NCBI GenBank assembly: GCA_947177775.1
Contig: CAMWVS010000004.1
Span: 1-64,000, forward strand
DNA length: 64,000 bases
Direction of reading: 5' to 3'
Source of the DNA: an uncultured Prevotella sp.
GTDB taxonomy: Bacteria; Bacteroidota; Bacteroidia; Bacteroidales; Bacteroidaceae
Both the position numbers and the translations under genes were made by a program. A model generated the notes under the pieces. It saw only the letters and a list, made by a program, of their open reading frames with translations, made no database searches and had not been told where the DNA came from. The stretch's first letter is position 1, and each line of letters begins with the position of its first letter. Positions 6,776 to 48,590 of the stretch are shown in pieces.

Positions 6776-7537
6776 ATGAAAATTTCGATTATAACATCAT
6801 GTTACAACCGTGAGCGAACGATTCGTGCTTGCGTGGAGAGTGTTTTGGCGCAGGATTATCGTGACATTGAGTATATCATTGTGGATGGTGCTTCGACGGA
6901 CCGTTCTGTCGATATCATACGTGAAGCGATTGCCGGTCATGAATCGCGTGTGAAACTTATCTCCGAACCTGACCGCGGGATGTATGAGGCCATCAACAAG
7001 GGCATACGCATGGCGACGGGCGATTACATCGGGCTGGTTCATTCGGACGATTTCCTTTTCTCGTCCCGGACCGTGAGCCATATCGTTGAACGGCTTGCGG
7101 AGACGCATGCCGATTTTCTATATGGCGACGGACTTTTTGTAGATTCCGGGAATACCGACAGAATCGTTAGGAAATGGATTGGCGGGACATATCGGTTGTG
7201 GAAAGTGCGTCACGGCTGGCTGCCGCTTCATCCTACGTGCTACATCCGTAGAGAGACGATGGAGAAACGAGGGCTTTATAACGAGTCTTACAGGATTGCA
7301 GCCGACTCGGACCTGCTTTTCCGTTATCTGCTTGGCGGAGATTTGACTGTCGCATATCTGCCGGAATACATTGTGAGGATGCGCATGGGAGGTATGAGCA
7401 CCGACAGCGCACGCCGGAAACAGATGTGGAATGAGGACATCCGCATGTATCATTCTCATGGTATGAACGCCACCGTCACGAAGATTGAGAAGATGATGTG
7501 GAAAGTGCCACAGTTCATCAAAGCGAAGTTCATGTAG
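6776..7537 (+). CDS. Glycosyltransferase family 2
   Basis: ISIITSCYNRERTIRACVESVLAQDYRDIEYIIVDGASTDRSVDI, GDYIGLVHSDDF. Confidence 0.93.
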   Translation: MKISIITSCYNRERTIRACVESVLAQDYRDIEYIIVDGASTDRSVDIIREAIAGHESRVKLISEPDRGMYEAINKGIRMATGDYIGLVHSDDFLFSSRTVSHIVERLAETHADFLYGDGLFVDSGNTDRIVRKWIGGTYRLWKVRHGWLPLHPTCYIRRETMEKRGLYNESYRIAADSDLLFRYLLGGDLTVAYLPEYIVRMRMGGMSTDSARRKQMWNEDIRMYHSHGMNATVTKIEKMMWKVPQFIKAKFM

Positions 7538-7589
7538 GTAATGTTCAAGATGAGGAATTATAACTCCTTTTACCTCCTTTTATAATAAA

Positions 7590-9938
7590 TTGATGGTTTC
7601 TCTCCACGACTATCAGAATGACATCAAGTCGCGTCTTGCGGAGGCGTGGCGAGAGCATCGCAGTGTGATGGTGCAGATGCCGACGGGCACCGGCAAGACG
7701 CATGTGCTGGCGGCCGTGGTGAGGGACTTTCTGGCTGAAGTGGACGATGGGGTGGTGTGGATTGTCGCCCATCGTCGTGAGCTGGTCGCTCAGACGGAGG
7801 AAACCATCGCGCGTTATGGGATTGCGGAGAGCAACGTGCGCGTAAGGGTGTTGTCCATACAGTGGCTGTCGCGTCGTTGGACGGGCATGGAGGCCGGAGA
7901 GCGGCCGTCGCTGGTGATTGTTGATGAGGCCCATCATGCTCAGGCGCGGACTTACCGCATGTTGTGGGACAGGTTGCCGGGAGCAAGATTCCTTGGACTG
8001 ACCGCCACGCCATGCCGTATGAACCGCAGCGGTTTCACTGATTTGTTTGACGTGCTGCTCACGTCATGGAGTATATCTGAGTTTATAAGAAAGGGCCGGC
8101 TCTCGCTGTTTGACTATGTGTCCATCCGTCCGGACAGCGGGACACAGATGCTTATTGACGGGCTGGAAAAGCGTGGGGTCGACGGCGACTATCAGATAAA
8201 GGAGATGAACGACATGCTCAACAGGAAGCAGAGCATCGTTCAGTTGTATGAAAGTGTGCGCAGATATGCCGACGGCAAAAAAGGTATCGTATATGCCATC
8301 AGCATAGCCCACGCCAGGGCTATTGCGGACTACTACAGTAGCCGTGGACTGACGGCCGTGGCTATTGACAGCCGGACTCCGGCCGCTGAGCGCAAACGGC
8401 TGGTGAGTGGTTTCCGGAAGGGGAGGACGGCGGTGTTGGTCAATGTCGATGTGTTCAGCGAGGGATTCGACTGTCCCGACGTTGAGTTCGTGCAGATGGC
8501 GCGTCCAACGCTCTCGCTCGCAAAATATCTCCAGCAGGTAGGGCGCGGACTGAGAATGTCGGAGGGGAAGACATCGTGCGTGCTTATTGACAATGTCGGG
8601 CTCTATCGTGTTTTCGGTCTGCCAACGGCCGCATGGGACTGGGAGGCTATGTTCCGTGGGGAATCGGCCGGTAAGGGCGTGCGCGCAATCAACAGACAGG
8701 CAAGTCTCATGATTGCCGGTACGTCTGCGTGTCCGGTGCGGCAGGACTGCGAAATGGAGCTGATTGTGTCCCACGACGCCCTGCTGTCGGCCATAGAAAA
8801 ACAGGAAGAATGTCAAAGCCTGTCCCTCCCGGTGTCACAGAAAATGACGGCATGGCGGGACGACGCGACCGGACTATGGGGACTGAAGGTCGGAAGGCGG
8901 CGGACTACGGAGGCTGTGTTTGCCGCTGTGACGGACATCGGATACGGGATGGCCGTTGTGAGATATGGAGACAGTCAGTGCGGACTGGTTGACTCCTCGG
9001 GCCGTGAGATCGGGGAACGGCGGTATTGTCAGTCGATGAGGTTCTCGAAGGACCGCATTCTGACCGTTCTGATGCCGGATGGACGGAGCCGTTACGTCGA
9101 TCTCTATAACATGAAGGAATATGCCGAGTGTCCGAAGGTGAAACGCTTCGGCGATGTTGAACTGCTGAAAATCCGGGATATGTATTACAGCCGTACCGTG
9201 AAACGATATGTGAACGGTCAGGGTCTCAGTGACGATGATGTCCGGAAATATAAGTCCTTCGTGCTGATTTTCGACTATCATGTGCCTTCCGACTGCCGCT
9301 CGGGGCGGTCTTTCAGCAGTGGCTACAGATGCGGCCATGCATGTCTGGTGGCCGGTGAGCATGAGACGTTCTACTGGTTGTATCGCCGTCTGGCCGACGG
9401 GAGCATAATCGTGACTGACGCCGCTACGGGAAGATACTATCATCTGGCTGATGGCAAGCCCCGCCGGAGTATAGGATGTTCCGGCACGGACTCCGGTTCG
9501 GCTACTGGCTTTGGTTCCGGCCCGGACGTCGGTTCATGTGTTAGGGCGGAAGTGGCGGAACGGAGCGCTGAGGCAGAACGGTGTGCCGTGGAGATTGAAC
9601 GCTTGGCGAAACGGGCGGAATCCGAATGCCGCGTTAACGAGCAAAGGAAGAAGCGGGAAACATTGGGCATGTCTGACGCCGCCGTTCCGTTCCAGTCGGG
9701 AATGAAGTGGGGACTCCGGGTCGGCGAACGCATCACTGTCCCGCCGATCTACAGGCATGTGAAGTGGCCGGTAGGGAGATATTGTGCCGTGGAAAAGAAC
9801 TATGGCCAGTGGGGAGTCATTGCAATAGACGGGACATTGATGGTCGAACCGCGCTATTCGGATATAGAAATAAACAGTCAGGGTATCGTAACGGGCACGA
9901 ACTTCATGGGGCGTAAGACGTCCCTGAAGCTGCCTTAG
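7590..9938 (+). CDS. DEAD/DEAH-box helicase with WG-repeat-like C-terminal region
   Basis: Walker A MPTGTGKT, DEAHH, LTATP, QQVGRGLRM; C-terminus GLWGLKVG..., MKWGLRVGERITVPPIYRHVKW, QWGVIAIDGTLMVEPRYSDIEI. Confidence 0.85.
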   Translation: MMVSLHDYQNDIKSRLAEAWREHRSVMVQMPTGTGKTHVLAAVVRDFLAEVDDGVVWIVAHRRELVAQTEETIARYGIAESNVRVRVLSIQWLSRRWTGMEAGERPSLVIVDEAHHAQARTYRMLWDRLPGARFLGLTATPCRMNRSGFTDLFDVLLTSWSISEFIRKGRLSLFDYVSIRPDSGTQMLIDGLEKRGVDGDYQIKEMNDMLNRKQSIVQLYESVRRYADGKKGIVYAISIAHARAIADYYSSRGLTAVAIDSRTPAAERKRLVSGFRKGRTAVLVNVDVFSEGFDCPDVEFVQMARPTLSLAKYLQQVGRGLRMSEGKTSCVLIDNVGLYRVFGLPTAAWDWEAMFRGESAGKGVRAINRQASLMIAGTSACPVRQDCEMELIVSHDALLSAIEKQEECQSLSLPVSQKMTAWRDDATGLWGLKVGRRRTTEAVFAAVTDIGYGMAVVRYGDSQCGLVDSSGREIGERRYCQSMRFSKDRILTVLMPDGRSRYVDLYNMKEYAECPKVKRFGDVELLKIRDMYYSRTVKRYVNGQGLSDDDVRKYKSFVLIFDYHVPSDCRSGRSFSSGYRCGHACLVAGEHETFYWLYRRLADGSIIVTDAATGRYYHLADGKPRRSIGCSGTDSGSATGFGSGPDVGSCVRAEVAERSAEAERCAVEIERLAKRAESECRVNEQRKKRETLGMSDAAVPFQSGMKWGLRVGERITVPPIYRHVKWPVGRYCAVEKNYGQWGVIAIDGTLMVEPRYSDIEINSQGIVTGTNFMGRKTSLKLP

Positions 9939-35361: not shown

Positions 35362-37635
35362 TCAGGCATAAGAGTGCATACCGCCGAGAACATAGTTCAC
35401 TCCGAAGTATGTCATCAGGACGGTGAGGAAAGCGGCGGTCATGAAGATATGGTATGTCAGCGGCCGGCGGAGCGACGGCAGTGAGCCGGCATGGACACCT
35501 ACGGCATAGACCATCATCGTTATGAGCGCCCAGACCTCCTTGGGGTCCCATCCCCAGTATGTTCCCCATGAGACATTAGCCCATACGGCTCCGATGAAGA
35601 TGCCGACGGCGAGCGTCGCGAGGGCGGGGTGGAGGAACAGCAGACTGAGCACGCGGAGCGCTTCCGGTGCGCCGGTCCGGCTGCTTCCGATGGTTTTCCG
35701 CGTAGCCGCCGCAACGACAAGGGCTGTCACACCGCAGATGAACGTCATGGCGAGCAGGGCGAATGAGAACATTATGGCGGAAACATGGAGACTGAGCAGA
35801 GGCGAGTTGAGCACAGGCATGACGTGGCTTATGTTCGGGTCCATCTGTCCGATGTGGGAAACGAGCAGGAAGAAGCCCGACATGAGGAAACCGAAGGCGA
35901 GCGCGATACGGAAGCGGCGGGCGGCTGCCAGCGATACGGCCATGACCACCCACGCCACGAACAGCATCGTCTCGTAGCCGTTTGACATCGGGATTGTGCC
36001 GCTGATGATCCACCGTAGGGCCTCACATACGGTCAGGGCGGCCAGCGACAGCGCCATCACGGCGCAGCAGAGCCGGAATGCGGCGCCCTTTGTTTTCCTG
36101 CCGCAGCCGGTCATCCGCCTTATTGCGACGGTCAGCATGACGACTCCGAACGTGAGATTGACCATGAAAAGGATTGTGGCGAACGGCACAGCGTTGTAAA
36201 TCCGTTCGGCTTTCGTCTGTAAAGACGACGGCAACGACATTCCCCCGTTTTTCTCCTGATAGCGCTTCATCTTGCCTATGAGCATTGCGGCGCGCTCCGT
36301 GTTGCCGCCGCCGGCCGCCTCGGCGAGCAGCGGGATGGCGCCTGCGATATAAAGGGCGTCGGGCGTAGGCACTGTGGCTGCGGGCTTGTCCGTCGGGGCA
36401 TTCCACGTCGTAGCGGCGTCGACAGTATATGGGAATATCTTCAGCAATGTTCCGCGTGTCACCTCCATGATCATCATCAGGCGGTCGTCTACGGCCGCCA
36501 CGTCCTTGTGGAACTTATCCGACGCTCCCGCCATGGTTTCCTGGACGTACGGGCCGAGGATATAACCGCCCATGTCGCGGTTGAAGAACGTGTTGACGGA
36601 ACAGTATTCCGGCAGCATCAGCGTCTCGCGCAGCGGTCCGTTCTTCATTTTTATTATCGGTTCGTCAAACCACCGGTCTCTCCACAGGATAAATCCCGTG
36701 AGCACCTGTTCGGCCGTCAGCCCCTCGTATGAAGTCTTTCCGCAGAGCTTCCGCGTGAAATCGACGGCCAGAGTCTGGACCGGACAGATGCGTCCGTTGT
36801 GAAGGACGTAGAGCCGGCCGAAATCCTCGGCCGTTTCCTTGGGCAGCACTGGCGGAGTTCTCTCACCGCCGTCAGCGCCCGATGCCGGAATGAAGCCGGC
36901 GGGAGCCATGAGAATGGTCATGACGAGCACGCTCTCCCTGACGGCCGGGCTTCTGAGAAGCCGCCGGAACGTTCCGGACGGATCCGCCAGCGACCAAAGA
37001 AACGAGATGAAGAGCAGCGCATAGCCCAGATATGTGACGGGAATACCCCACGGGTCGGCGTTGAGCGCGAGTATGCTGCCCTGCATGTCGGGGTCGTAGT
37101 CGCTCTGATAGAGCCTCACGCCGCGATGGGAGCAAATCCGGTTCATTGAGACGACAGCGCTTCGCGTGTCTCCGTCGGTGACGGTGATGTGGGAAATGTA
37201 GTCTGCGGCGGACGTCGTGCCTTCATGATACGCCACCTCGAAACGGTCGAGACGTATGCCGAACGGAAGCTGACGCTCACTCACGTCGTCACCGTCCTGA
37301 ACCAGATATGTCACGACTGTTTCGCCCTGACGCAGATGGATCATGCCACGTGTGGCCGTGAGGTGTGTCAGCAGCGCCCCGGCGAGTATGATGACGAACG
37401 ACAGATGGAGCAGAACCGTTGACGCGCGGCGCACCCTCCGCCTGATGAAATGGACGGCGGCAAAGGCTGTCAGCAGTGCCCACAACGCCGTGAACCACCA
37501 CGCGCCGTAGATGTTTTCAGCCGTGAAGTGTGTGCCGTGGCTCTTCTCGACGAACGTTGCCGCGCCCATGCATATTATGGTAAGGACGTAGAGAAATTTC
37601 AGGTATGCCGTAAATGATATTCCGGATGTTGTCAT
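35362..37635 (-). CDS. Cytochrome c biogenesis protein, ResB-CcsA fusion (CcsBA)
   Basis: N-terminal ResB-like half, C-terminal CcsA WWD-type ANVSWGTYWGWDPKEVWALI. Confidence 0.92.
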   Translation of the reverse strand: MTTSGISFTAYLKFLYVLTIICMGAATFVEKSHGTHFTAENIYGAWWFTALWALLTAFAAVHFIRRRVRRASTVLLHLSFVIILAGALLTHLTATRGMIHLRQGETVVTYLVQDGDDVSERQLPFGIRLDRFEVAYHEGTTSAADYISHITVTDGDTRSAVVSMNRICSHRGVRLYQSDYDPDMQGSILALNADPWGIPVTYLGYALLFISFLWSLADPSGTFRRLLRSPAVRESVLVMTILMAPAGFIPASGADGGERTPPVLPKETAEDFGRLYVLHNGRICPVQTLAVDFTRKLCGKTSYEGLTAEQVLTGFILWRDRWFDEPIIKMKNGPLRETLMLPEYCSVNTFFNRDMGGYILGPYVQETMAGASDKFHKDVAAVDDRLMMIMEVTRGTLLKIFPYTVDAATTWNAPTDKPAATVPTPDALYIAGAIPLLAEAAGGGNTERAAMLIGKMKRYQEKNGGMSLPSSLQTKAERIYNAVPFATILFMVNLTFGVVMLTVAIRRMTGCGRKTKGAAFRLCCAVMALSLAALTVCEALRWIISGTIPMSNGYETMLFVAWVVMAVSLAAARRFRIALAFGFLMSGFFLLVSHIGQMDPNISHVMPVLNSPLLSLHVSAIMFSFALLAMTFICGVTALVVAAATRKTIGSSRTGAPEALRVLSLLFLHPALATLAVGIFIGAVWANVSWGTYWGWDPKEVWALITMMVYAVGVHAGSLPSLRRPLTYHIFMTAAFLTVLMTYFGVNYVLGGMHSYA

Positions 37636-37788: not shown

Positions 37789-39618
37789 TTATATGGCCTC
37801 GATGAAGGCTACGACAGCGTCACGGTCAGCCTTGCCCAGGCGGTAGAACTTCTCTGCAGTCCAGTAGGCATCAGACTCCTTGGAGTATCCGTGCCATAGA
37901 ATAGCCTCGACGACGTTGCGTGCGCGGCAGTCGTGCAGACGGTCGTCGGCACCCGTGAGGCGCTTGGACAGACCGCGGCCCCAGAGCGGAGTCGTGCGGC
38001 ACCAGCCCGTGCGGATGTCGTTCTTCATGAACAGACGGTGCTGGACCATATCCGTGTACGGCCATATCGTCTGATGGGGGAAGCGCGGCAGGACGTTCTG
38101 CGGGTCGAGACCGTTGGCTGCGGCATACGCCTTGATGCTGTTGTCCACCCAATAGTTGTCGGCGCCGGTGGTCCACGACGGACGGTGACACGTGGCGCAT
38201 CCCATCTCGTTGAACAACTGCTTTCCGCGTTTCACCTTGGCGTCGTCAAGATTGCGTGCCGCCGGAACGGCCAGACCGCGGTGCCAGACCATGAGGTCAT
38301 AGTAGTCCTTGTCGCTCATCTCCTCCTCGCCGTTGTATGGCGCACCATTGACGAAATAGCGCTCGAACGTCTCCGAGTCGGCGGCGGAGTTCAGACCGAG
38401 CAGCGTGTTGACCTTCTCGGCAATCTCCTCCTTTGTCTGTGCGAAATAAGGATAGAGTACCGACGTGTTGTCATCGCCGTTGCGGCTGATATAGTCAATC
38501 ACCTCCTCATCCTCAGACATGGCCTTTGCCCATGCCTTGGTCGTGTAGAAGTAGTGACGGTCAGAGCGGGTAACGTTGGTGATGTTCCAGATGGCGTTCG
38601 CTCCGGCACCGTCCTGAAGCGACGCGCGCGTCATGGCGTAGGTGAACTTCTTGACCTTCAGTTGACCGTCGGCCAGCTTATAGTAGGCACCGTTGGCCGT
38701 TCCGAGACTCTTGTCGCCGGCCCAGTCGTTGGCAGCGGCGTCCCACATGGCCGGATTGAGCACGTCGCTGACGTTCTGTCCGCGGCTGGCGGCATCGCCG
38801 GCCTGCTTCCGGTATTCCTCGCGCATGTCGTCCTCGTCGATGGCGTCAAGCAATCCGGTTCCGTAGATACCTATGGTCGACTCCAGGCGCACCTCGTAGT
38901 CGTTCGGCCGCGGGTTGGTGTTGAACGCATCTTCGGGAATGGTCACCTCCGGATAGATGAGCGAATAGGTCTCGCCGTCGGCGAAAGCCATAGGCAGACC
39001 GCTCGGCATGGCGTCAACCGTTCGCCATTCAATGCGTATCTTGCTCTCGTCGATGGGTGCCTTGAAGGGGTGCATGGCCTGTGTCTGGGGCATGCCCGTC
39101 ACTTCCGTCACGTAGGAGTTGGCGGCAAACGGATTGCCCGCGCGGTCGACACCGGCGTTGGGATGGTAGACAACGAGCAGATAGCCGTTGCCGACGGTGT
39201 TGGCCCGGTATTCCGTCTGGCGCTTGCCGTGGCCGTAGGCCGGGTGACAGTGGATACAGCTGTTGCGCGTCCATGACGGTCCGAGACCCTTGCGCGGGTT
39301 TTCGGTGATGGTGTAGACGTGCTCAAAGAAGTCTTCTCCCTTGTTGAAACTCGTCTCCATTCCGGCTACTCCGATCACGGCTGGAGCAGGTGCCGAGTAG
39401 CTGGCTTTCTCCGTCGTGCCGAGGAGTCCGCCCGGATACCACTCATCGGCTGTGAACGTGTCGTTGGCCTTGCCGAACTGGCTGTCGCCTGCGGCCAGCT
39501 CTCCGAGGCCGTTGGAGGTAACGGACTGCTGTGTCTCGTCGTCGTCAGAGCATGCCGTAGTCAGCTGGGTGGCCAAAATGGCTGCGAGGGTGAGTTTTGA
39601 AATGTCTGTAAATCTCAT
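37789..39618 (-). CDS. Di-heme oxidoreductase/peroxidase-like c-type cytochrome lipoprotein (former DUF1111)
   Basis: Two CXXCH sites, SCIHCHPAYGHG and GCATCHRPSW; lipobox-like TTAC. Confidence 0.9.
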   Translation of the reverse strand: MRFTDISKLTLAAILATQLTTACSDDDETQQSVTSNGLGELAAGDSQFGKANDTFTADEWYPGGLLGTTEKASYSAPAPAVIGVAGMETSFNKGEDFFEHVYTITENPRKGLGPSWTRNSCIHCHPAYGHGKRQTEYRANTVGNGYLLVVYHPNAGVDRAGNPFAANSYVTEVTGMPQTQAMHPFKAPIDESKIRIEWRTVDAMPSGLPMAFADGETYSLIYPEVTIPEDAFNTNPRPNDYEVRLESTIGIYGTGLLDAIDEDDMREEYRKQAGDAASRGQNVSDVLNPAMWDAAANDWAGDKSLGTANGAYYKLADGQLKVKKFTYAMTRASLQDGAGANAIWNITNVTRSDRHYFYTTKAWAKAMSEDEEVIDYISRNGDDNTSVLYPYFAQTKEEIAEKVNTLLGLNSAADSETFERYFVNGAPYNGEEEMSDKDYYDLMVWHRGLAVPAARNLDDAKVKRGKQLFNEMGCATCHRPSWTTGADNYWVDNSIKAYAAANGLDPQNVLPRFPHQTIWPYTDMVQHRLFMKNDIRTGWCRTTPLWGRGLSKRLTGADDRLHDCRARNVVEAILWHGYSKESDAYWTAEKFYRLGKADRDAVVAFIEAI

Positions 39619-39733: not shown

Positions 39734-41071
39734 TCAGTCTTCTTCGGGGATTTCGGCGTCCTCGAATTGGATGTTCCATATCGTGCAGACATACTTCACG
39801 AACGGTGACGGCATGTTGCTGATACCTTCAATAGCGCTGACGTATGCGTTCTCGATGCTGTTGTTGATGTCGCCGCGGCTGACGCTCGCAAAGAACGTGT
39901 GGAAGCTGTAGCGTGCGGCCGTGCGGTCGGTAGAGCCCAGCCATACGTTGCGGATGGAGCGGATGTTGTCGCGGAAGTCGGTGATGGAGTTGTAGCTGTA
40001 GGGCGACTCCACGTAGGAGACGTCGCCGGCAGAGAACGGATTGGCAATCTTGGCTGTGCCGACCTCGTTGGCTATGCCGAGACAGCTGCCCTCATCGTCA
40101 GAGAGAACCTGAGATATGGCGGCCTGAATGTTGGGGTAGGAACTGCGCGAACCCTCCACGCCGGCCTTGGCGAGGTTGTCGCCGTAGGAAAGTCCGTCCT
40201 GAGTCTTGTAGTCGAGCCCGGCGTTGCGTACGACAGCCACACGTGAGGCGTTGGCTGTAGTCTCGCCCTCCCATGCCACCTGCAGCTGGAACGTGCGGTT
40301 CTTGAGCAGCGTGCAGATGTCCTGAGCATACTTCAGCTCTTGTGCTCCGCTGATGTTGCCGAAGCCCTTGTAGGTGTCATAACCTCTGAGCTCCTCCACA
40401 CGGCGCGGCTGTCCGTCGCGGAAGAGGATGAACTCAAGGGCGTGGAAGCCGAGGATGCTCTCGTCGTTGAGGTCCTCGGGACGTCCGCCGCGGTTGAAAT
40501 AGCCGAGGAGCATGGTGCGGTTGAGGGGCCAGGAGTCGATTGTGGGGTCGATGTTGAAGTCGGAAGCGGCACCGCCGAGGAACGCCTCGCTCATTTCCCA
40601 GTGGGAACGGGCCTTCTTGAAGTCCTCACAGGCGCTGTTGATCTGGGCCTGAGTGATGGTCGACGCGGTCAGACCGTGGAGCGTGGCTTCGAGGTGTTCA
40701 ACGTCGTCGGCCAGACGTGTGTATGTCGGAACGATGACGTTGGAGACAAGATTTTCCAGCGTCTTGCGCAGGTAGGCCTCCTGTTCAGACGAGAGGCGGG
40801 CCTGGCCGATGACGGCATTGGCGTTCTCCAGTTCGTCGCAGAGGTCTTCACAGCCGTCGATGGCGTTCTGGCCGAACAGCCTGTTGGCGTAGGCTGCGGC
40901 GGTGGTGTTGGACGGATAGTTCTCCTGGTCGAGGATGGGAGCTGTCTCGACGATGCCGAACTCGTTGTCACCCAGTGTCGTTGTTTCTCCGTTGTCGTCA
41001 TTTTCAGAACATGACGTGAAGGTTATGGCTCCCATGATGACTGTCATGGGAAGGAAAAGATACTTTTTCAT
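39734..41071 (-). CDS. Imelysin-family lipoprotein
   Basis: Lipobox FTSC; GxHxxE-type motif ILGFHALEFILFRDGQPR. Confidence 0.88.
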   Translation of the reverse strand: MKKYLFLPMTVIMGAITFTSCSENDDNGETTTLGDNEFGIVETAPILDQENYPSNTTAAAYANRLFGQNAIDGCEDLCDELENANAVIGQARLSSEQEAYLRKTLENLVSNVIVPTYTRLADDVEHLEATLHGLTASTITQAQINSACEDFKKARSHWEMSEAFLGGAASDFNIDPTIDSWPLNRTMLLGYFNRGGRPEDLNDESILGFHALEFILFRDGQPRRVEELRGYDTYKGFGNISGAQELKYAQDICTLLKNRTFQLQVAWEGETTANASRVAVVRNAGLDYKTQDGLSYGDNLAKAGVEGSRSSYPNIQAAISQVLSDDEGSCLGIANEVGTAKIANPFSAGDVSYVESPYSYNSITDFRDNIRSIRNVWLGSTDRTAARYSFHTFFASVSRGDINNSIENAYVSAIEGISNMPSPFVKYVCTIWNIQFEDAEIPEED

Positions 41072-41173: not shown

Positions 41174-42487
41174 TCAGAGGAACCATCCCTCATATGCCAC
41201 ACCGATGCTGACGGACGGCTCGTCGTTGTAGACGCTCTTGAGGAAGCGGTGGGAATATTCAGCCTTGACGGCCACCTGCGGCAGCGGGTGGTAGTTGATG
41301 CCGGCGGCCATGCGCTTCACCTCGGTATAGTCGTATGACGTGTTGCGCGTCTTTGAGGCGTATGGATTGTACTGCTCGTAGCGTCCGAAGACATAGAGCC
41401 GCTGGGCGTCCCGGCGCAGGGCGGGAATCTGGGAGAACACGTCGTATCCCGCCTCGATGCCGACGGCATAGGCATTCTTGCTCACGGAAGCCGAGTGGTG
41501 GTAGGGTGACTTCTTGTTCGTGCGGTTGTAGATGTATTTCAGCTGGTCGGCGGCACCGAGATAGCCGTAGTCGGCCTGACCGCGTACAATCCAGTTGTGG
41601 CCTTTGTAGGTAAAGTCGATGGCACCGATGGCCACGATTCCCTTATACTGTGACTCTACTCCGTTGGCATTGCGCGGATAGCTGTTGCCGATGGAGTGGC
41701 CGTAGTAGCCGCTCAGACCGATGCGCAGCCCTGGGACGGAATAGTTGTCGAGGCGGAGCGACGCACCGTATTTGTTGGCTACCTCAAATTCCAGCGGTGT
41801 TGACGTTCCCCGGTTGATCCATCCCGTGTTGGTGAAGTTGTCGGCGTTGAGGCCGGCCAGCAGCTGTGCTTCATATCGGAAGTCGCCCGAACGTCCCCAG
41901 AAGCTGATACCGGTCTGATGCCATGTTGACGGCATAATGGTGTTTTCGCCTTCCGGACGGTAGACGGTGAAGAAGTTGAGCGGTTCGTGGCGGGCGTTTG
42001 TCAGGCCGACTGGTACGACGATATGGCCCATCCTGATGTTGGCCCAACGTCCGAACGACTTCTGAATCCAGAACTGTTCCAGCTCTACCTCGCCGCCTTT
42101 TTCGGTCTCATGTTCCCATTCGCCACCTTCTTCTTCCTCCTTTTCGTAGGCGGCTCCGGTTCCACCGTGTTCAAATTCAATTTCCGTTCCCATTGTCCAG
42201 CCCTTTCCGAAGTCGTAGCCGATATAGATAACGGCGTGGGGAATGTCGAAACGTCCGTGGCTCGGGTCGTTCTTGTGGCTTTCGGCCTGGCTGTAGCGGC
42301 TCAGGTGGTCGCTGAAGAAATTGCGTGTCAGAGCCACTTCGCCGTATCCGCCGATGCTGAGACGCTTGCCTCCGGCGTGCTCCATGACGCTGTCTGCGGC
42401 AGAAACCTGTGCCATGACGGGAGCCGCTGTGAGCGACATTCCGGCCATGATGGCGCAGGCTGATAGATGATGGTAGATTGTGTTCAT
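41174..42487 (-). CDS. Outer-membrane porin-like beta-barrel protein
   Basis: Signal peptide from ATG at 42487; alternating beta strands; terminal aromatic WFL; -7 box at 42515-42522 places the track start (42538) upstream of the promoter. Confidence 0.82.
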   Translation of the reverse strand: MNTIYHHLSACAIMAGMSLTAAPVMAQVSAADSVMEHAGGKRLSIGGYGEVALTRNFFSDHLSRYSQAESHKNDPSHGRFDIPHAVIYIGYDFGKGWTMGTEIEFEHGGTGAAYEKEEEEGGEWEHETEKGGEVELEQFWIQKSFGRWANIRMGHIVVPVGLTNARHEPLNFFTVYRPEGENTIMPSTWHQTGISFWGRSGDFRYEAQLLAGLNADNFTNTGWINRGTSTPLEFEVANKYGASLRLDNYSVPGLRIGLSGYYGHSIGNSYPRNANGVESQYKGIVAIGAIDFTYKGHNWIVRGQADYGYLGAADQLKYIYNRTNKKSPYHHSASVSKNAYAVGIEAGYDVFSQIPALRRDAQRLYVFGRYEQYNPYASKTRNTSYDYTEVKRMAAGINYHPLPQVAVKAEYSHRFLKSVYNDEPSVSIGVAYEGWFL

Positions 42488-42747
42488 TGTCGTTTTATTG
42501 TTTTTTTGTCGGTGCAAAGGTATGCCAAACCGTGGCACCGTGCAATACTTAAAAATAGTGAAATATCAATCAAACGCAGACAGAAAGCCCATTCTGATAC
42601 CGATGAATAATTAGAAAACCACTGTGATACCTAAATCTTGCTAACGTCGCGGCTTTCTTCTGTATTAAATACCTATAAATTATTATTGCGACGGTATGCT
42701 TTTTTTTGTAATTTTGCACCTTGATATGGTATTATAATAAGGTGACG

Positions 42748-43707
42748 ATGAAAAATCAGAAGATATACGAGGCCGGCGACAAGATGATTTCGCTCATCAA
42801 GGACAACTACGATCTGCTCCAGTCACTGGGCAGTTTCGGCATAAACCTTGGTTTCGGCGACAAGACAGTGCGTGAGATATGCGAGGACAACGGCGTGGAT
42901 ACATACACTTTTCTCGCCGTGGTCAATCTGACCATCAACGGATATTCCGACTATGACAATGACGAGCAGTTGTCTGTTCCAACGCTGATGCACTATCTTG
43001 AGGCCAGCCACATTTATTATCTCGATTTTCAGCTGCCCTACATACGCCGCGAGCTGGAGGAGTCCATCGACCGGAAGAGCAGTCTCGGTATGCTGATAAT
43101 GAAACTCTATGACGACTACGCCAACGAAATCCATAAGCACATGGCGTTCGAGAAGAAGATTCTCTTCCCTTACGTCAACGCTCTTGTGGAGGGACGGCCC
43201 GGCGGCGACTACAGCATAGAGACTTTCTCACGCAACCACGAAGAGCCGGCAGCCAAGCTGAAAGAGCTGAAGATGCTTATTATCAAGTATATGCCGCAGG
43301 ATTCACACCGAAATAATCTGCTCATGGCGACGCTCCACGACATATATAATAATGAGGAATGGCTCAATCTTCATGCCCAGGTGGAAGACAGGATATTCGT
43401 TCCGGCAATACGCCGGTTGGAACAGATGTCGCGCCAGACGGACGTTGCGAAGAACATTTCTACCATGGTTTTCAAGGGTGGGACGGACAATGGCGATCTC
43501 CTTTCCGAACGCGAACGTGACGTTGTGGTGGCTTTGGTTCAGGGTATGGCCAACAAGGAAATTGCCGACCATCTCTGCATCAGTATCAATACCGTAATAA
43601 CCCACAGACGCAACATCGCCCGTAAGTTACAGATACACAGTCCGGCAGGTCTGACCATTTACGCAATAGTTAACGGACTGGTCGATATTTCGTCTGTCAA
43701 GCTCTGA
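42748..43707 (+). CDS. RIC/ScdA-like hemerythrin domain fused to LuxR-type HTH
   Basis: YLEASHIYYLDFQLPYIRREL, EIHKHMAFEKKILFPYVNAL, LHAQVEDRIFVPAIRRLE; C-terminus LSERERDVVVALVQGMANKEIADHLCISINTVITHRRNIARKL; -7 TAATTTTG at 42709. Confidence 0.85.
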   Translation: MKNQKIYEAGDKMISLIKDNYDLLQSLGSFGINLGFGDKTVREICEDNGVDTYTFLAVVNLTINGYSDYDNDEQLSVPTLMHYLEASHIYYLDFQLPYIRRELEESIDRKSSLGMLIMKLYDDYANEIHKHMAFEKKILFPYVNALVEGRPGGDYSIETFSRNHEEPAAKLKELKMLIIKYMPQDSHRNNLLMATLHDIYNNEEWLNLHAQVEDRIFVPAIRRLEQMSRQTDVAKNISTMVFKGGTDNGDLLSERERDVVVALVQGMANKEIADHLCISINTVITHRRNIARKLQIHSPAGLTIYAIVNGLVDISSVKL

Positions 43708-43740
43708 GAAAATCTTTCTTTGGGGGATAAAAATTCTATG

Positions 43741-43767
43741 AAATCCGGTACAAGGTATCGGATTTTT
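43741..43767 (+). terminator. Terminator of the LuxR-type regulator
   Basis: AAATCCG...CGGATTTTTATT. Confidence 0.75.
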
Positions 43768-47957: not shown

Positions 47958-48590
47958 CTATATCTTGTTAATATCAACGTAGCCGTTCATGACGGCATAT
48001 ATGGTCAATGCCGATACACTTTTGAGTCCGAGTTTGTCCATGACATTCTTTCTGTGGGTGACCACTGTGGTCAGACTGATGTTCAGACGGTCGGCTATTT
48101 CCTTGTTGATGAAACCGCGGACGATGAGTGCCATTACCTCCGTTTCGCGTTCGGTGAGACTTTTCCGAGTGCCGTTGTCGGTGGTTTGACGGTTATTTGT
48201 TGTGGCTGGAAGGTTGCGGCCGTGTGCATGTGCGCTTTGAACGAGTGTCAGCAAAGACTTTATCAGCTGTTTTTCGGGTACGTTGATACACAGACAGTGG
48301 AAACCGCCAGGCTGTGAAGTGTCGAACGATAGTGTGAGTACTATGGTTTTGTTGCGGCGCCGGCAGAAGAAGTCCCTGTTGGGAAGCAATATGTCCATTG
48401 ACACAAAGTAGTGGAAATAGCTGTCCGGTTCATTGGCGTCGAGTTCTGCAAACGAACCGAAAGTGTCCACTTGTGCTATTGGCATGACGTCCTGCAATAT
48501 ATATTTCAACCCTAACACCGCAAGAGTGTTAGGGTTGATTATTGCTATTTTGGGCATGTCGTACATGCCTTTATGGTCTTTCAGGTTCAT
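47958..48590 (-). CDS. LuxR-type regulator with atypical receiver-like N-terminus
   Basis: C-terminal SLTERETEVMALIVRGFINKEIADRLNISLTTVVTHRKNVMDKLGLKS; N-terminus lacks the usual acidic pair. Confidence 0.85.
   Translation of the reverse strand: MNLKDHKGMYDMPKIAIINPNTLAVLGLKYILQDVMPIAQVDTFGSFAELDANEPDSYFHYFVSMDILLPNRDFFCRRRNKTIVLTLSFDTSQPGGFHCLCINVPEKQLIKSLLTLVQSAHAHGRNLPATTNNRQTTDNGTRKSLTERETEVMALIVRGFINKEIADRLNISLTTVVTHRKNVMDKLGLKSVSALTIYAVMNGYVDINKI

Follow-up and report, generated by a model that had tools for sequence, protein, structure and literature searches.

The window analysed here, a stretch of 64,000 nucleotides from an uncultured Prevotella sp., encodes a 319-aa protein in which a RIC-like hemerythrin domain is joined to a LuxR-type helix-turn-helix (HTH), and a predicted operator in the promoter of its gene recurs upstream of a divergent operon and of a set of genes resembling the iron-starvation stimulon. 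The protein is probably an autoregulated, iron-responsive (possibly O2/NO-modulated) regulator of an iron-starvation regulon; we infer from sequence data that it is the operator's binder, that the signal is iron, and what the sign of the control is. By sequence identity the window comes from a Prevotella/Xylanibacter-type genome, its closest records being uncultured Prevotella (98%) and Xylanibacter rodentium (86%). The features of the region are presented in Table 1.

Table 1. Features of the regulator locus (positions are those of the window)
Feature	Position	Strand	Evidence or remarks
RIC-like hemerythrin / LuxR-HTH fusion regulator	42748..43707	+	319 aa; Pfam, NCBIfam, AlphaFold, Foldseek, profile match
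Hemerythrin domain (aa 99-221)	43042..43410	+	Pfam; ligand conservation; YtfE profile match
GerE/LuxR helix-turn-helix (aa 251-306)	43498..43665	+	Pfam; Foldseek; HTH tree
Predicted operator of the regulator's own promoter, AATACCTATAAATTATTATT	42668..42687	+	17.9 bits (99% null, 10.3); EM motif
-7 promoter element of the regulator gene, TAATTTTG	42709..42716	+	separated from the operator by 21 nt
Predicted operator of the divergent porin operon, AATACTTAAAAATAGTGAAA (read on the + strand)	42544..42563	-	13.9 bits; 21-nt spacing to the porin -7 box
-7 promoter element of the porin operon, TACCTTTG	42515..42522	-	sequence read directly
Porin-like outer membrane protein, first gene of the predicted target operon	41174..42487	-	437 aa from ATG 42487; weak OMP beta-barrel match
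Imelysin (peptidase M75) of the predicted target operon	39734..41071	-	Pfam, E 4e-35
Di-haem oxidoreductase (DHOR) of the predicted target operon	37789..39618	-	Pfam, E 4e-32
ResB/CcsB cytochrome c assembly protein of the predicted target operon	35362..37635	-	Pfam/NCBIfam
Intrinsic terminator between the regulator gene and nrdD	43740..43766	+	12-pair hairpin; sequence

The ORF of the regulator begins with the ATG at 42748 and ends with the stop codon at 43705-43707. A preliminary description of this DNA had assigned the span 42515-43707 to the gene; the 319-aa plus-strand ORF was retained but its start was corrected, since the -7 element of the divergent porin operon has 42515 as its first base, and the longer span therefore takes in the intergenic region. 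An alternative TTG start at 42721 was rejected, because the homologues begin at an ATG equivalent to that at 42748.

Pfam analysis revealed two domains, (i) Hemerythrin (PF01814; aa 99-221, E 2.9e-10, 41.1 bits against a cut-off of 25.3) and (ii) the C-terminal GerE domain of LuxR/GerE regulators (PF00196; aa 251-306, E 1.6e-16), the latter also recovered by Foldseek; the same analysis found in this protein no receiver domain with a phosphoacceptor Asp, no FUR match and no canonical ScdA_N domain. The AlphaFold model (mean pLDDT 79, pTM 0.65) contains long helices at residues 77-106, 112-147, 165-180 and 186-241 and a low-confidence stretch (243-247), followed by the HTH. In Foldseek searches, the first part of the model matched YtfE/RIC and the second the LiaR, FixJ and NarL domains; every match had E > 0.01, yet a probability of 1.0, and the HTH reached a TM of ~0.8 (target-normalised) with the LiaR/NarL/GerE DNA-binding domains. 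Domain matches and structural prediction thus agree with the earlier proposal of a RIC-like hemerythrin and a LuxR HTH within one protein, and the predicted structure places the split between a YtfE part and a LuxR-HTH part.

Six residues are candidate di-iron ligands: H88 (narrowly missed by the Pfam match), H131, E135, H164, H209 and E213. Five of them are invariant in all 149 homologues, while H164 is kept in 147 and replaced by Asn in two, which bears out the His/Glu motifs of the di-iron hemerythrin fold recognised previously; together, domains, fold and ligand conservation support the prediction of a one-component regulator that combines a LuxR HTH with a sensor of the di-iron fold. A search with an N-terminal profile of the protein matched E. 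coli YtfE in the PDB (E 4.8e-5, over residues 68-220). The NCBIfam RIC model TIGR03652 was matched with E 3e-14, but its equivalog cut-off was missed (53.3 bits against 204.7), so that by this model the protein is RIC-like and not RIC. The Cys-Cys pair of RIC is missing; the aligned stretch, GINLGFGDKTVREIC, holds one Cys, and only C45 is conserved, being invariant in the 149 homologues. The first description of the N-terminus as ScdA/YtfE-like is corrected accordingly, both a ScdA_N match and the Cys-Cys motif being absent.

The regulator therefore shares the di-iron hemerythrin fold and the aligned ligands with the YtfE / RIC (ScdA) di-iron repair proteins, from which it differs in lacking the Cys-Cys motif, in scoring below the RIC cut-off and in carrying an HTH. 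The common fold and ligands would suit a RIC-like repair or iron-donor protein with a DNA-binding tail and repair as its main role, a reading that these same differences make barely credible: the HTH is moreover strongly conserved, and a split version of the regulator also pairs the hemerythrin domain with a regulator.

In the family Bacteroidaceae, 137 of 151 species genomes contain a match at E 1e-20. Prevotella-like genera encode one fused protein; other genera encode a RIC-like protein of ~235 aa followed by a ~200-aa protein with a pseudo-receiver and an HTH (the two genes overlap in the one example inspected), and among 20 sequences of the LuxR partner almost all are without the phosphoacceptor Asp in the pseudo-receiver, N or S mostly taking its place. 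In a tree of the HTHs (80 aa, low resolution), fused and split-pair sequences were intermixed within one CdhR-type clade; the split pairs came from Bacteroidaceae genomes and included no named P. gingivalis sequence. As both forms share one clade, the fusion most simply arose through loss of the pseudo-receiver of CdhR, perhaps more than once. By description, the same two domains occur in PG1236-PG1237 (CdhR) of Porphyromonas gingivalis and BT0519-BT0520 of Bacteroides thetaiotaomicron, both iron-starvation induced; these are pairs of proteins with a pseudo-receiver in the LuxR partner, whereas the regulator of the window is a single protein with no receiver. CdhR regulates hmuYR in P. gingivalis by a mechanism called unclear by the authors, and in one source it is described as a repressor.

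The fusion as such is already known, since a figure legend in PMC10434189 presents PIN17_RS10465 of Prevotella intermedia, which has the same fused form as the protein of the window, as the one-protein version of the PG1236-CdhR / BT0519-0520 pair. Within the consulted passages of that paper we found no operator, ligand or regulon analysis of PIN17_RS10465, and a literature search for hemerythrin and LuxR yielded no description of such a regulator beyond it. The novelty here is the operator, not the fusion.

Alignment of the regions upstream of the regulator genes revealed a conserved block beside the -33 region, and an unbiased EM search of these regions returned one NarL-type palindrome, AATACCTA-N4-TAGGTATT, in each of three groups (close-fused, distant-fused and split); in a fourth, small group only the -7 box was returned. 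The predicted operator is a 7-2-7 NarL-like palindrome, TACCTAT-N2-ATRGGTA. It overlaps the -33 element, its promoter-proximal half running into the -33 TTG, and both operators of the window lie 21 nt from a TAnnTTTG box. Two more pairs of weak half-sites, TACCGAT-GA-ATAATTA (42598-42613) and TACCTAA-AT-CTTGCTA (~42628-42643), are located between the two main operators. Scores of a symmetrised matrix exceeded the 99% null upstream of 84% of the regulator genes (counting the training sites) and in 88% of 67 porin promoters, a figure that partly reflects the same sites, as in divergent loci the porin and regulator genes share an intergenic region. The same matrix did so in 0-2% of the regions upstream of the imelysin, DHOR, ccs, nrdD, nrdG, manA, LuxR2 and oadB genes. 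In about 44 regulator promoters the operator is separated from the -7 box by 36-37 nt instead of 21, so that a single divergent operator may be common to the two genes in these cases.

The minus-strand neighbours confirmed that the regulator gene is divergent from a porin-imelysin-di-heme operon, the porin-like label being based on a weak sub-threshold Pfam match and on the annotation of a similar B. theta locus. A GTG start at 42538 was rejected for the porin, since its -7 box would fall inside the ORF. For an independent test, a matrix was trained only on split-type regulator promoters unlinked to the porin operon; 40 of 47 porin promoters passed, as did all four of the non-divergent ones. 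Porin operons located on contigs other than that of the regulator (four loci) also carry the operator at the standard spacing. The previously suggested control of this operon is thus supported, as a prediction, by a conserved operator that is present even where the genes are unlinked or non-divergent. Of the fused loci, 68 had adequate flanks, and 51 of these contained at least two of the porin, imelysin and DHOR genes, as did 1 of 15 split loci; these counts are a description and not a test of linkage because close relatives dominate the fused set.

The other flanking genes proposed as targets, nrdD and nrdG, do lie downstream of the regulator gene in the window (NCBIfam), and in this the early description was correct; this adjacency is confined to the window and ~10 close relatives. 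Their control by the regulator was rejected: the operator is present upstream of nrdD in none of 13 loci, with the split-trained matrix as well, and a terminator separates the genes (Table 1).

The wider distribution of the operator was examined by a pattern search for a composite, operator-N21-TAnnTTTG, with up to 3 mismatches and the reversed pattern as a control. This revealed 126 matches (control, 13) in 10 genomes of the genus and 114 (control, 28) in 8 split-type genomes. An intact -7 box was the criterion for selecting the loci to be read, and a few overlapping ones were counted more than once. The genes directly downstream included 44 TonB-dependent receptors (some of them at a second, related palindrome), 10 copies of the regulator, 8 flavodoxins, 7 porins, 5 TetR genes, 4 enolases, DUF2023, HmuY-associated genes and others. 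Among the HmuY loci, a canonical-like site lies 21 nt from the -7 box in a subset (four loci), and the others have a variant or none. An operator-like site is also present at a FeoAB locus, where the -7 box is ~49 nt away, and FeoAB was left as a weak candidate and not accepted as a target. In a split-type genome (G032, contig C3, ~772700-772860), a flavodoxin gene is divergent from the RIC-CdhR gene, with an operator for each; the enolase gene is preceded by the iron operator in four genomes.

This predicted regulon resembles the iron-starvation stimulon, gene classes being compared across species. According to the published RNA-seq data, growth without iron raised flavodoxin-DUF2023 159-598-fold; TetR/ABC operons, TonB receptors and HmuY were also raised, many classes at least 100-fold. 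The porin-thiol oxidoreductase-M75-CcsA locus BT2473-82 rose 63-324-fold. Phosphopyruvate hydratase is on the B. theta iron-depletion list (2-7.7-fold for its cluster, p 0.14), and RIC-CdhR itself was raised 7-20-fold (PMC10434189).

The protein had been proposed as an O2/NO/iron sensor. Because of the resemblance to the iron-starvation stimulon, the signal is better read as iron; O2 and NO are less favoured, with modulation by them possible. It is quite improbable that the di-iron site senses O2 or NO and drives a redox or nitrosative response with iron genes among its members. Such a role would be consistent with the link between RIC proteins and NO and peroxide damage (PMC9268430) and with the reaction of the hemerythrin-like iron sites of plant iron sensors with O2 and H2O2 (PMC12022348), but the predicted targets serve mainly iron/heme uptake and iron sparing, no NO or O2 detoxification genes were identified among them, nrdDG is not a target, and the induction of RIC-CdhR by iron depletion (PMC10434189) points in the same direction.

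As regards the binder of the operator, 159 Bacteroidales genomes were compared: those with a relative of the regulator contained 199 composites (control, 45) and those without it 36 (control, 16). The number of composites tracks the presence of the regulator (Mann-Whitney p 2e-7, uncorrected for ancestry and hence confounded by it). Genus g24 offers a natural knock-out: strong composites are absent from four genomes that lack the regulator. This gives only mild support to the regulator as the binder, because genome G104, with no detectable regulator, has two strong composite loci. The latter would suit an explanation in which the gene is a mere member of the iron-starvation regulon, or a downstream sub-regulator, and the palindrome is bound by Fur, another LuxR protein (LuxR2, 47958-48590) or a sigma/anti-sigma system; the two Fur-family proteins of this genome and the iron induction of the gene itself in relatives (PMC10434189) fit it too. 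We nevertheless find this explanation rather unlikely. Besides the correlation with the regulator, the geometry of the palindrome suggests NarL/LuxR half-sites and not a Fur box, and the published fur locus of B. theta did not respond to iron, although Fur could still be involved. LuxR2 was rejected as the binder, since its own promoter contains the site in 0 of 37 cases and its HTH falls outside the CdhR clade.

LuxR2, encoded on the minus strand, is of the LuxR type, and its N-terminus resembles a degenerate receiver; its gene lies tail-to-tail directly after the hemerythrin-LuxR gene in many Prevotella loci. Two palindromes related to the operator, with the same spacing, precede heme-synthesis and other genes, and other regulators may therefore share part of the gene set. 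The second palindrome (~AATCCNNATAAATRAGGATTG; nine loci, same -7 spacing) precedes genes for TonB receptors, HemN radical SAM, uroporphyrinogen decarboxylase and an amine-oxidase/HemG-like protein, and perhaps marks a heme regulon of its own, under a related LuxR protein. The third (~AATGGTTATTNATNANNATTG, same promoter spacing) was found on contig C87 of genome G000 (~7216-7993) and at three further loci; in the window's own genome it lies near a third LuxR-type HTH gene, which suggests that each paralogue has its own operator.

Returning to the iron-responsive regulator, we propose a one-component factor with a YtfE-like di-iron hemerythrin input and a CdhR-type LuxR HTH, which would bind the palindrome, presumably as a dimer. 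Judging from the usual position of the -7 box, the operator would be centred at about -41 from the transcription start, the position of a class-II activator, and the protein probably acts as an activator. The regulator would control (i) its own gene, (ii) the adjacent porin-imelysin-diheme-ccs operon and (iii) an iron-starvation regulon of TonB receptors, flavodoxin, DUF2023, TetR-linked and HmuY-associated genes. Occupancy or redox state of the di-iron site would report cellular iron, and loss of iron would turn the regulon on. An autoactivator also suits the induction of the gene in low iron; reports on CdhR conflict, though, as the title of another paper reportedly names it an activator.

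That the di-iron site senses iron is suggested by the predicted regulon and by analogy with the eukaryotic hemerythrin iron sensors FBXL5 and BRUTUS/BTSL, in which a di-iron site senses iron, the principle proposed here (PMC12022348). These are ubiquitin ligases and not DNA-binding proteins, and are likened to the regulator by principle alone. If the proposal is true, we know of no other bacterial transcription factor using this principle, which is known in eukaryotes.

In gut and oral Bacteroidales, iron starvation elicits a large response with a link to inflammation, for which no regulator has been established; the authors of the iron stimulon study considered the regulatory mechanism unclear and noted that iron binding by CdhR had not been shown. 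The regulator described here is a good candidate for this role, and the fusion suggests that the sensor is the hemerythrin partner. More tentatively, and with somewhat less than even expectation, the hemerythrin di-iron domain of a bacterial DNA-binding protein may itself sense iron directly, within a single chain in Prevotella and as a RIC and CdhR pair elsewhere; this system would be the main iron-starvation regulator of Bacteroidales and would do there what Fur does in many other bacteria. With the operator, the regulon becomes a concrete prediction that can be tested in many genomes.
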